A model generated the notes under the pieces. That model had not been told where the DNA came from. It did not search any database and saw only the letters and a program-made list of their open reading frames with translations. This document shows, piece after piece, positions 41,541 to 50,221 of a stretch of DNA of 64,000 nucleotides. Origin of the DNA: Darksidea phi (taxonomy: Eukaryota > Ascomycota > Dothideomycetes > Pleosporales > Lentitheciaceae); contig JASJFT010000002.1 of assembly GCA_030770425.1 (NCBI GenBank), positions 124,001 to 188,000 on the forward strand. Reading direction: 5' to 3'. Numbering within the stretch: the stretch's first letter is position 1; every line of letters starts with the position of its first letter. The translations under genes and the position numbers were made by a program.

Positions 41541-42017
41541 TCGATCGGCCAGCCGCACTTTTAGCGGCACGGAACTCCTCCAACCAATCTCTGGGCCTTT
41601 GGAGTGTTTCCCGAACGTGAACTAAAAGACCAGAACTATCTCTATAACTTGTCGGTAACCTATCTCTACCTTAGAAAAGGAGGAGACCCTGAGAAATAGC
41701 GTTGCAGATGTTGTCGACGATAGAGTTGAATGATCGAAGCGAGGTATAGAAGGCCATAAAGGCATATGAAAACGGACGATGATCGTGCAGACAGGAAATT
41801 GCTTCCGCTCGTCGATGGGAGAAAAGTAGCGATGTCTCAGCACGCTGCCGGGTGACGAGTGAGATGTTATGAAATTGCTTGGTTCAAATTAGGGTGCATG
41901 CTGACATCTCCTACTTCTAACGCAGGCGGTTAGCATTTCGTCTTGGGCAGTGTAAAGATATGATAAAAGTGGTACTGGCTGCCTAAAAACTGTAGTTTCG
42001 TGAGCTCTTTTTAGTGG
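41541..42017. other. Transposon left flank
   Basis: No gene seen. Contains the 3' UTR of the regulator gene and the insertion site of the Fot1-like element. Confidence 0.4.
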
Positions 42018-42019
42018 TA

Positions 42020-42079
42020 ACGTGTTTTATAAGCGAGCTGCGAATACAAGCGAGCTGCGAACCCCACCAACTTTTCGCG
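42020..42079 (+). repeat. Left 60-bp TIR
   Basis: Starts ACGTGTTTTATAAGC and matches 43810-43869 inverted over all 60 bases. Inside it the 13-mer AAGCGAGCTGCGA occurs twice, 17 bp apart, a likely transposase-binding site. Confidence 0.95.
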
Positions 42080-42100
42080 ACGCGTTACCTATCAACTCTC

Positions 42101-43747
42101 ATGGCTCAACCAACTACTATTCGATTGCCCTGCAACGAAGCAGATATCTCCCTAGCCATCTCAGCTATCGATCAGAATCAGATCCAGTCTGTTAAACGCG
42201 CTGCAGCCACGTTTAACGTCCCCCGAACAACCCTACGCCACCGACGCGCTGGAATGGCTGCGCGACGCGATTGCCCGCCCAAATCAAGGAAGCTTTCTGA
42301 GCTAGAGGAGGAGGTGGTTATTAGCTATATACTCGACCTGGATTCGCGAGGATATGCCCCCACACTAGAGGCTGTGCGAGATATGGCGAATAGACTGCTC
42401 ACTGCGCGCGGCGCTGAGCAGGTAGGCAGAGACTGGCCTAGAAACTTCGTCCAGCGAACTGATAGCGTCAAAACACGATTTAATCGACCCTACGATCGAC
42501 AGCGAGCTCTCTGCGAGGATCCTGATATTATTCGAGCCTGGTTTGACCGAGTAGCGCGTACTAAGGCTGCCTGGGGTGTTACTGATCAGGATATCTACAA
42601 CTTCGACGAAGCTGGCTTCCTAATGGGCAAGATAACGCCGCGACTAGTCGTTACTGGCTCAGAGAGACGCGGGCAGGCTAAAGCTATCCAGCCAGGCAAT
42701 CGCGAGTGGGTTACTATAATACAAGGAATCAACGCTACTGGGTGGGCTATTCCGCCCTTCGTTATCTTCGCTGGCAAGCACCACCTCTCTGCCTGGTACG
42801 AGAGCGATATGCCAGGCGATTGGGCTATCGCTGTTAGTGAGAATGGCTGGACGAATAATGATCTAGGAGTTGCCTGGCTGAAGCACTTTATCAGGCATAC
42901 GACAGATCGTAGAGTAGGCGCGCGCCAGCTACTGATTCTTGATGGCCATGGTAGTCATATCTCGAACGAATTCCAGGACCTCTGCAAGGAGAATAATATC
43001 TACGCTCTCTGTATGCCAGCTCATTCGTCACACCTCCTACAGCCGCTTGATATAGGCTGTTTCTCGCCGTTGAAGCGCGCGTATGGGGATCAGGTCAATA
43101 GCCTAATTCGCGATCATATCAACCATATCACGAAGCTTGAATTCCTACCCGCCTTCCGCGCAGCCTATGATAAGGCTATTACAGAGAAGAATATCTGCGC
43201 GAGCTTTCGAGGCGCTGGCCTAGCTCCACACGATTCAGAGGTAGTGATCTCGAAGCTCGATATCAAGCTGAGGACGCCGTCGCCAGTAGCCCTACTAGAG
43301 GCTGTATGGGAGGCTAGAACACCAAGCAACGCGCGCGAAGTAGAGGCTCAATCAACGTTGATTCGTGAGCGCGTACGTAGGCACAAGAGCTCGTCGCCTG
43401 CTTCTGTTATTCTAGTTATCAATCAGCTGAGTAAAGGCGCTGAGGTGTTGGCTCATGAAGCTGTGTTCATGCGCGAACGAATCGCGAGCCTAGAGAAGGC
43501 AATTGAGGCCGCCACAACGCGCAGAAAGCGTAAAAAGAAGAGGATCCAGAAGCAGGGCGTCCTAACCAAGGCAGAGGGGGAGGCTATTATTATTCAAAAG
43601 GCTGCTGAGCAGCAGCAAGAGAACGAAAGACGTCAAGTTGCTGGGCAATCAGGTGTGAGCCGACAGGCTTCAGCGCGCTGCACGCGCTGCAGAGAACCTG
43701 GGCATAACTCACGAACGTGTAAGAAGCCTACTGTAGATACTACTTGA
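42101..43747 (+). CDS. Fot1/pogo-type DDE transposase
   Basis: Cut-and-paste transposase, 548 aa from the ATG at 42101, only 21 bp inside the left TIR; the longer frame begins with GTG inside the TIR and is not used. An N-terminal psq-type helix-turn-helix (RAAATFNVPRTTLRHR, residues 34-49) is followed by a CENP-B-like HTH (KLSELEEEVVISYILDL, then TLEAVRDMANRLL). The catalytic acids are Asp169 in YNFDEAGF, Asp281 in LILDGHGSH and Asp317 in LLQPLDIGCF. A basic coiled-coil segment (RRKRKKKRIQKQ) precedes a C-terminal CCHC zinc knuckle at 527-540, CTRCREPGHNSRTC. Every catalytic residue is present. The stop at 43747 leaves 62 bp before the right TIR. Confidence 0.95.
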   Translation: MAQPTTIRLPCNEADISLAISAIDQNQIQSVKRAAATFNVPRTTLRHRRAGMAARRDCPPKSRKLSELEEEVVISYILDLDSRGYAPTLEAVRDMANRLLTARGAEQVGRDWPRNFVQRTDSVKTRFNRPYDRQRALCEDPDIIRAWFDRVARTKAAWGVTDQDIYNFDEAGFLMGKITPRLVVTGSERRGQAKAIQPGNREWVTIIQGINATGWAIPPFVIFAGKHHLSAWYESDMPGDWAIAVSENGWTNNDLGVAWLKHFIRHTTDRRVGARQLLILDGHGSHISNEFQDLCKENNIYALCMPAHSSHLLQPLDIGCFSPLKRAYGDQVNSLIRDHINHITKLEFLPAFRAAYDKAITEKNICASFRGAGLAPHDSEVVISKLDIKLRTPSPVALLEAVWEARTPSNAREVEAQSTLIRERVRRHKSSSPASVILVINQLSKGAEVLAHEAVFMRERIASLEKAIEAATTRRKRKKKRIQKQGVLTKAEGEAIIIQKAAEQQQENERRQVAGQSGVSRQASARCTRCREPGHNSRTCKKPTVDTT

Positions 43748-48925: not shown

Positions 48926-49340
48926 GGAATGCTGAAGGGTTAGTAGATAGGAATAGACTGCCTGACTGTGTCGAGAGTTTCGTGCTATTGAGCCTAGTAC
49001 GAGGCCGTATGCGCAAGCGGTGAGGTGGTGCCGATCCCCGAGTTCAATTGGAAGTGAGAATCGCGGAAGCACATAGCAGCGGGGGCTAGTTCTGAAGGGA
49101 AGCGACTTGGAGGGGATGTTCTCGCTCGTCTCCAGTCCATAGCTTGTGCCTGTGTTTGCGTTGTCGGCAGACCAAAGGTGCTGTAACAGGTCAACCACGT
49201 CATCGGCAGATTGGGCCGGCGCAGCATGCGAAGCACACCCCAGGCAGAAGGCGCAAAATTCAGCACCTGCAATCTCAAATCCATCACCGTCTTCTCCCTC
49301 AAGTGCCTGGCAAAAGCCACACAGCTCAATGAAAAAGGGT

Positions 49341-49667
49341 CGCGTCAGCCAGAGGTAGTGCAATACTGGCGACACTGTGGCCTCAACTATGAGCAAGCTC
49401 AGTGAGAGGAGGCCGGGGTACAAAAATAGGAATAATCTTGAAAATGTTCCCGTAGGAACTGCAGACAGTCAGCAAAGAAGCTTGCGAGTGAGGAAGAAGG
49501 GACCACGGACCGTTTCAGAGATTAAACTGAAAAGAACAGATACTACACTTGATCTAAGCCAAAAGGCAAAGCTGTAAAAGGTTAGCAAGCGATCGAGAGT
49601 TGGCACCCTAGAGACCAGGACCGAAGCCTCAAAGTGTAGGGTGGAAGTGGAGGTTACTTACAGAGCT
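49341..49667 (-). ncRNA. U2 spliceosomal snRNA gene, interrupted by an intron
   Basis: U2 snRNA base-pairs with the intron branch site in the spliceosome. The minus strand carries the diagnostic 5' domain: GCCTTTTGGC stem-loop I, then GATCAAGTGTAGTATCTG with the branch-recognition sequence, then stem IIa TCAGTTTAATCTCTGA. Downstream are an Sm site (ATTTTTG, near 49420), stem III (GGCCTC pairing with GAGGCC) and stem IV with its conserved loop, GCCAG-TATTGCACTACCT-CTGGC at 49370-49348. The genomic sequence just 5' of stem I (TTTTACAG) does not look like U2, but removal of 49661-49572 joins AGCTCT to CTTTGCC. That recreates the CTCTCTTTGCC start remembered from fission-yeast U2. The spliced RNA would be about 237 nt. 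The 5' end (49667) and 3' end (about 49341) are estimates. Confidence 0.9.
49572..49661 (-). other. mRNA-type spliceosomal intron inside the U2 snRNA gene
   Basis: A 90-nt intron with strong signals: donor CTCT/GTAAGTAAC, branch site TTGCTAACC (branch A near 49582), acceptor CTTTTACAG/CTTTG. It lies about 6 nt after the predicted RNA 5' end. Confidence 0.75.
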
Positions 49668-49696
49668 GAAGAGCAAAGGGAGGGCCCAGCGGCGAG

Positions 49697-49704
49697 CTTT
49701 TATA
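49697..49704 (-). promoter_or_regulatory. TATA box of the U2 gene
   Basis: TATAAAAG on the minus strand, 37 bp upstream of the predicted RNA start at 49667. It fits the spliced model; the unspliced 5' end would lie about 125 bp away from it. Confidence 0.6.
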
Positions 49705-50221
49705 GACAGTGGGATGCCAAGCCCCTAAAAACGCTAACGGATCATGTGATTGCTATACTGCAGCAGGTGGGTGACCATTAGCGAGGCTGAAGCTGTGGTG
49801 AAGCTATAATGACGTAGAGTACAAGCCTTCAGATATTGTTGGCTTGGCACCATGACACCACATTCCAAAGCGGCAGAGGACATGACGTTAGCAATGCGAA
49901 AGCGTTACAGAATGGGGTTGAAAATTTCCCCTTTCCCCACATTTTTTGCCTATGCCTTTATATATCATGGCTACCTGTACCGCATCAACACCTACAAAGC
50001 GAAGCAATCCGCGAGATGCTGTTACCTGGTTGATAGAGGGCGGTGCACCAGAGTTTGACGACAACTGCAGACAAATGCAATCAAAAAGCAGCAGCTTCGC
50101 TCTATATCGAACTTTATGGTTGAGTCTGTTGAGTATATGACGTAGAAGATTTCACATGCTAGCATGTGAATACCCGCGAACACCCGCGCACGTATAGCCC
50201 TAGTACTACCTAATATACTTC
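49705..50221. other. Intergenic region upstream of U2 and a small + strand gene
   Basis: No gene recognised. It contains the distal promoter of U2 (-) and the upstream region of the spliced ORF at 50222. TCACATGCTAGCATGTGA at about 50150-50167 is a perfect palindrome. Confidence 0.4.

Follow-up and report, generated by a model that had tools for sequence, protein, structure and literature searches.

The presence of mRNA-type introns in spliceosomal small nuclear RNA (snRNA) genes is, as such, already known. The basidiomycete Rhodotorula hasegawae is said to have introns in its U1 and U5 genes, as described in 1996. An mRNA-type intron also interrupts its U2 gene (Takahashi et al. 1993, as cited in PMC2586383), and U6 introns are found in fission yeast and other fungi (Tani and Ohshima 1989; Canzler 2016; both as cited in PMC5832005). 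According to those parts of PMC5832005 which deal with U3, fungal U3 introns are 5′-proximal, lie near a site of RNA-RNA interaction and are mostly of the GT-AG type; 133 of 138 occur in the 5′ half of the first stem-loop, and intron-plus and intron-minus U3 paralogues are found together in eight genomes. The same parts present U3 and U6 as the only small structured RNAs which, in 2017, were known to be often interrupted.

The locus presented here resembles that of R. hasegawae in that a fungal U2 gene (and U1 genes) appears to carry a spliceosomal intron. In contrast to the R. hasegawae case, the host is an ascomycete, U4 genes are also affected, paralogues with and without the introns are present in one genome and the first exon is only about 6 nt long. 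The first 500 residues of the SepA formin ORF in the analysed DNA (a stretch of 64 kb, referred to below as the window) share 93% identity with that of Lentithecium fluviatile (Ascomycota, Dothideomycetes, Pleosporales, Lentitheciaceae). The host is thus a pleosporalean ascomycete near Lentithecium, and the basidiomycete precedent is no matter of close kinship. As with the fungal U6 introns, a spliceosomal RNA gene is split whose product is needed for its own making; unlike in those systems, U6 itself is unsplit here (one match) and the introns are in polymerase II-type snRNAs. U3 is a snoRNA, and a U3-like intron habit is seen here in U1, U2 and U4. Among the papers listed in searches of the open literature, to which most subscription papers do not belong, none was seen to describe introns in ascomycete U1, U2 or U4 genes, or an intron in U4 of any organism. 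For an ascomycete to carry introns in U1, U2 and U4 together, located at recognition helices and with only some 6 nt of first exon in U2, looks new. A search for U2 of other species using one exact pattern gave 0 and 0 matches in collections of viral contigs and genome contigs.

The U2 gene occupies window positions 49339-49667 on the minus strand, as judged from its sequence and from the Rfam covariance search which had been suggested together with the original prediction. In this search, RF00004 matched positions 49578-49334 over model positions 1-192 with 127.1 bits (gathering score 46), and was the sole Rfam family over its gathering score in the 64-kb window. Read on the minus strand, the order is TATAAAAG, located 36 nt upstream of the inferred U2 start, AGCTCT, a 90-nt segment GTAAGTAAC...GCTAACCTTTTACAG and then CTTTGCCTTTTGGCTTAGATCAAGTGTAGTATC. 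We interpret the locus as follows:

49732-49751, minus strand: upstream promoter-like block AATCACATGATCCGTTAGCG, one base different from that of the U2 copy on C31; function presumed
49696-49706, minus strand: TATA box within TCTATAAAAGC, 36 nt 5′ of the inferred start
49662-49667, minus strand: U2 exon 1, AGCTCT, about 6 nt with an inferred start; the same in the C434 copy, where it is contiguous with CTTTGCC
49572-49661, minus strand: intron 1, 90 nt; donor GTAAGT (49661-49656), branch site GCTAAC (49586-49581), acceptor CAG (49574-49572)
49511-49571, minus strand: U2 exon 2, with the remaining helix II strand, stem I, GTAGTA (49546-49541) and stem IIa
49459-49510, minus strand: candidate intron 2, 52 nt, in stem IIb; donor GTCCGT, branch site GCTGAC (49473-49468), acceptor CAG
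49339-49458, minus strand: U2 exon 3, with stem IIb, the Sm-site region ATTTTTG and stems III and IV
49291-49337, minus strand: 3′ hairpin CTTTTTCATTGA...CTTGAGGGAGAAG, common to the 13 U1, U2 and U4 genes scored

The 90-nt segment, its donor, its GCTAAC and its acceptor are as originally described, and a TATA box indeed lies near the inferred start. Two points of the original prediction are corrected: the stretch between stem I and stem IV is not continuous but interrupted by a second candidate intron, and the last base of stem IV is at about 49339 and not at 49341. The gene contains what appear to be GT-AG introns with donor and branch signals, and their precise removal would yield a canonical U2 of 187 nt (the three canonical copies of the genome measure 186, 187 and 187 nt). 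This RNA would include the branch-point recognition sequence GTAGTA in exon 2 and, by eye, an Sm-type U-rich site, ATTTTTG. We are highly confident that the locus is a functional gene for U2 snRNA and that its transcript, made by RNA polymerase II and capped, would carry major-class spliceosomal introns. Counted from the inferred start, the first exon has about 6 nt, an extreme length.

The genome (51.35 Mb, 477 contigs) contains four U2 matches over the cut-off: C434 (130.9 bits), C31 (129.8), the window copy on C112 (127.1) and C35 (71.4). The C434 gene has an exact empty site, AGCTCT/CTTTGCC (TTTAGCTCTCTTTGCC; slashes mark the sites of interruption), without the 90 nt and at the same base, and, as far as sequence comparison goes, provides the decisive control for intron 1. 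Intron 1 is also present in the C31 gene, where it is 106 nt long. The C31 and window copies are identical at 185 of 187 exon positions and at 89 of 90 aligned intron 1 bases, with 16 gap columns in the latter. They are recent duplicates and therefore represent one intron-bearing lineage. Their flanks (400 to 150 bases upstream and 300 bases past the 3′ hairpin) are only about 59% alike in a forced alignment; likeness to the C434 flanks, also in forced alignments, is 55-64%, so that the two are no closer to each other than to C434. These apparently unrelated flanks speak against simple alleles. The C35 gene is strongly divergent and is the only copy without a visible intron. It (L004; C35:242273-242475, minus strand) has an intact GTAGTATCTGTTCTT, a TATA box, a 3′ hairpin and a predicted U6 pairing of -12.8 kcal/mol, and is possibly a variant U2.

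Removal of intron 1 restores a proper U2 5′ end, as had been anticipated. In predictions made on short 5′ pieces, the pairing of U2 with the 3′ region of U6 (helix II) reaches -13.3 kcal/mol for the spliced form against -5.6 kcal/mol for the unspliced one, and splicing restores 11 helix II base pairs. The corresponding predictions for U1 with a consensus 5′ splice site are -13.4 kcal/mol spliced and -4.1 kcal/mol unspliced. For U4 with U6 they are -21.2 (C54) or -19.3 (C14) kcal/mol spliced and -16.3 kcal/mol unspliced (C54), most of the U4/U6 pairing thus surviving in unspliced U4. The introns thus lie, according to these predictions, in those strands of each RNA that contact its partner.

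The U1 and U4 families show the same kind of interruption. U1 is represented by four genome matches of 38.7-47.1 bits, all under the curated gathering score of 69.5 and with 5′ ends of the U1 type. Three are split (C71, C422 and C290, with introns of 57, 56 and 62 nt respectively) in the arrangement ATACTT/GTSAGT...GCTAAC...TAG/ACCTT, and the fourth, on C121, is unbroken at this site (ATACTTACCTAG). The break, ATACTT/ACC, falls inside the sequence which pairs with 5′ splice sites. Between C71 and C422, exon 2 is identical at 119 of 123 positions and the intron shows 38 matches, 15 mismatches and 7 gap columns, the splice signals being kept despite this drift. There are five U4 matches over the cut-off (L016, with 34.7 bits, is under it and outside this count). 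Two of these, on C54 and one of the two on C14, are split as AAGTGCTCG/GTACGT...GCTAAC...CAG/GGCTTTACG by an intron of 54 nt each, which interrupts U4/U6 stem II. Exon 2 of the two split genes is identical at 107 of 107 positions and the intron at 53 of 54; the near-identity of the introns indicates one lineage. No 5′ intron was seen by eye in the other three U4 matches, and none was seen in U6 or U5 (one match each). Copies which are intron-free at the split site therefore exist in the U1, U2 and U4 families alike. U1 and U4 (L005-L008, L011-L015) comprise clearly diverged paralogues, which suggests several snRNA variants within one genome.

Covariance models misaligned the 5′ ends of four split genes (U2 on C31, U4 on C54, U1 on C71 and U1 on C290). 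This is a warning that snRNA gene searches can misplace the 5′ ends of split genes.

To describe these segments we used a rule, written after the introns had been seen: a donor GT[ACG][ACG]GT, a branch site [AG]CT[AG]AC near the end and a terminal AG. All 12 candidates, that is the 5′ introns (two in U2, three in U1, two in U4), the three U2 intron 2 segments and those of two U2-like genes, conform to it, with branch sites ending 8-10 nt before the 3′ end; these candidates were found partly by the same signals, and a candidate intron in U3 is outside the 12. Across both strands of the 64-kb window, 13 start/end pairs 45-110 nt apart fit the rule (about 1.5e-6 per start and length), among them both U2 introns, which is more than would be expected by chance. 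The coding intron of the formin gene (55 nt, GTAAGT...ACTAAC...TAG) falls outside the rule by its branch distance of 12 nt, the limit being 11; the rule thus describes these snRNA introns and gives no baseline for the organism. By eye, the RuvB-like 2 gene has one coding intron, and two coding introns are too few for an organism-wide intron profile.

The proposal that an intron interrupts U2 after about the first 6 nt is borne out and strongly supported by the empty site of C434, the restored U6 pairing, the TATA spacing and the U1 and U4 parallels, and the alternatives can be weighed against these observations. If the 90 nt were an insertion in the promoter region, transcription would start at about ACAG/CTTTGCC and give a U2 with an altered 5′ end. 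The Rfam alignment does pass through TTTACAGCTTTGCC as the 5′ end, as would be expected in this case; since a covariance model is blind to a split, it would also read on into the insert end (TTTACAGCTTTGCC) of an interrupted gene. The TATA box would then lie some 128 nt from the start, against 34-51 nt in the 13 genes measured, the predicted U6 pairing of a U2 started inside the insert drops to -6.0 kcal/mol, and GTAAGT...GCTAAC...CAG, the C434 empty site and the matching U1 and U4 inserts would be left unexplained. We regard this alternative as highly improbable. Even harder to credit is that a mobile introner, inserted in many genes, gave rise to the introns. Several snRNA families are interrupted at 5′-proximal sites, which is the sort of distribution such an element could give. 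A BLAST search of the 51-Mb genome with a 261-base query (the window intron, the promoter and part of exon 2) found three U2 genes only, C434 through its exon alone. Window intron 1, to which this search applied, had no match outside U2 genes at BLAST sensitivity, and by eye the U1, U2 and U4 introns have no evident common sequence beyond the splice signals.

The intron-bearing U2 genes might also be dead or silent duplicates, functional U2 coming solely from C434 (or C35). The original prediction had pointed to a second, uninterrupted copy, the only one expressed, as the finding that would overturn it. Such a copy exists in part: C434 is without the 5′ intron but has the segment of intron 2, and the intron-free C35 gene is divergent. 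C31 and C112 are indeed recent dispersed copies with unrelated flanks, and the TATA box of C31 is altered to CATAAAAG. Against a loss of function, the three canonical U2 RNAs vary in 10 exon columns, four of which make up two compensatory pairs relative to C434 (in stems IIa and III), and all three RNAs preserve the 30 U2 stem pairs listed. The promoter block and 3′ hairpin are kept as well, and diverged U1 copies keep their splice signals while the intron drifts. We consider silence of the intron-bearing U2 genes improbable. A more serious alternative concerns only the segment in stem IIb, which could be a retained expansion of U2, intron 1 alone being spliced. Insertions in the U2 stem IIb region are tolerated in some yeasts, the Rfam model absorbs the segment as a 58-nt stem IIb loop, and its signals in the window copy, GTCCGT and GCTGAC, are weak. 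A segment of 49-52 nt with intron signals is nevertheless found at this position in all three canonical copies (three of the four U2 genes), with the same layout of donor, branch site and acceptor:

C434: 50 nt, GTACGT...GCTAAC...AAG
C31: 49 nt, GTGCGT...GCTGAC...CAG
window copy: 52 nt, GTCCGT...GCTGAC...CAG

It also diverges faster than the exons (between C434 and the window copy, 75% of aligned bases are identical in intron 2 against 95% in exon 2 and 97% in exon 3), and its removal generates a stem IIb hairpin, GUUCC-UACG-GGAAC, in which a cUACGg loop is closed across the junction. Retention of the segment is unlikely in our view, and its weak signals in the window copy, together with the capacity of stem IIb to accept insertions, make intron 2 the less certain of the two. 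If intron 2 is real, making new canonical U2 would need old U2, since all three canonical genes carry the segment.

On the reading that both segments are introns, transcription would start at AGCTCT, about 36 nt past the TATA box. U1 would bind the cap-proximal donor and pre-existing U2 would bind GCUAAC and GCUGAC. Both introns would be spliced, an RNase III would cut the 3′ hairpin, and helix II between U2 and U6 would form only after splicing and 3′ cutting. The supply of U1, U2 and U4 from split genes would thus depend on existing spliceosomes, since unspliced precursors are predicted to be poor at the pairing needed, together with the paralogues without those introns. We speculate that this dependence could act as a feedback on snRNA supply. 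A tentative proposal, which may well prove wrong, is that introns repeatedly entered polymerase II snRNAs at core RNA-RNA recognition strands by reverse splicing, making a self-gated and self-renewing machinery for which the intron-free paralogues would be the starter set. The sites concerned would be the 5′-splice-site strand of U1, U2/U6 helix II, U4/U6 stem II and U2 stem IIb, with a further site in the protein-binding loop of stem IV of two U2-like genes. Were this true, each precursor should have little or no activity before splicing.

If the introns are spliced, then the strands for 5′-splice-site recognition by U1, for U2/U6 helix II and for U4/U6 stem II are split, and the organism would offer a natural, genetically dissectable splicing machine which processes its own RNA parts. 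With intron-plus and intron-minus paralogues in one genome, it could be tested directly if snRNA introns are neutral, have a regulatory role or are left over from reverse splicing. The same system bears on the shortest capped first exon accepted by the spliceosome.

The 13 U1, U2 and U4 genes measured all have a TATA-like element 34-51 nt 5′ of the inferred start, and this spacing covers one range for intron-bearing and intron-free genes. By eye, CACATGA or CACGTGA blocks resembling the promoter block of the window gene occur 5′ of some other snRNA genes of this genome. A downstream hairpin with nearly fixed arms accompanies each of the 13 U1, U2 and U4 genes scored. Among the 21 loci examined, it is found at 19, six of which had been picked by the hairpin pattern itself, and is absent from the U6 and U5 loci. 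The genome has 13 matches to the exact arm pattern and 0 to its reversed control; with a looser pattern the figures are 26 and 12. Three (L034, L044 and L046) of 10 new loci obtained with the looser pattern fold as the hairpin; the other seven look like chance, although one of them (L053) forms a partial stem. The consensus fold has 18 pairs, nine of them changed on both sides, and is likely to be a site of RNase III (Pac1/Rnt1-type) processing and termination. In Schizosaccharomyces pombe, hairpins directly downstream of polymerase II snRNA genes are linked to Pac1, in the portion of PMC8421224 concerned with them, and the position directly 3′ of such genes is the same here. In comparison with those hairpins, the arms here, TTTTC.T.G ... 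TTGA.G.AGA, are conserved in sequence across families and the U5 match is without a hairpin. Six further loci (L019, L021, L025, L029, L034 and L046) have the snRNA 3′ hairpin and no Rfam match over the cut-off; L019 includes a U2-like stem IV and L046 a U1-like stretch (26.5 bits) adjoining L023.

Several other loci deserve a brief description. The single U3 snoRNA match of the genome (L059; C190:259883-260102, minus strand) has a snRNA-type 3′ hairpin downstream, and its 5′ end is split by a candidate intron starting with GTCGGT and containing GCTGAC, with AG shortly after; this segment conforms to the donor and branch pattern. The sole U5 match (L010; C1:20681-20798, minus strand) has TATATA at -30 (-29 in U6), a B-box-like GGTTCGAGCTA and runs of T5 and T6 just downstream. 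It is without a 3′ hairpin, and its Sm-site region, AATCTTTGGA, is without the usual T run. It looks like a polymerase III gene; a TTTT within loop I counts against this. In the U6 gene (L009; C179:23388-23487), a B-box-like GGTTCGATTTC lies downstream of a T9 run, as in the Saccharomyces cerevisiae U6 gene. Two U2-like loci (L026, in the region of C412:235746, and L044, in that of C146:226793) have a TATA-like element, U2 stems III and IV and the 3′ hairpin; the branch-recognition sequence GTAGTA is absent from the 660 bases scanned. Their stem IV loop contains an intron-like segment of 58 or 52 nt, in the arrangement GCCAG(T or C)/GT...AG/ATTGCAC. Finally, a 577-aa ORF at window positions 42014-43747 (plus strand) looks, by eye, like a Pogo/Fot1-type DDE transposase.
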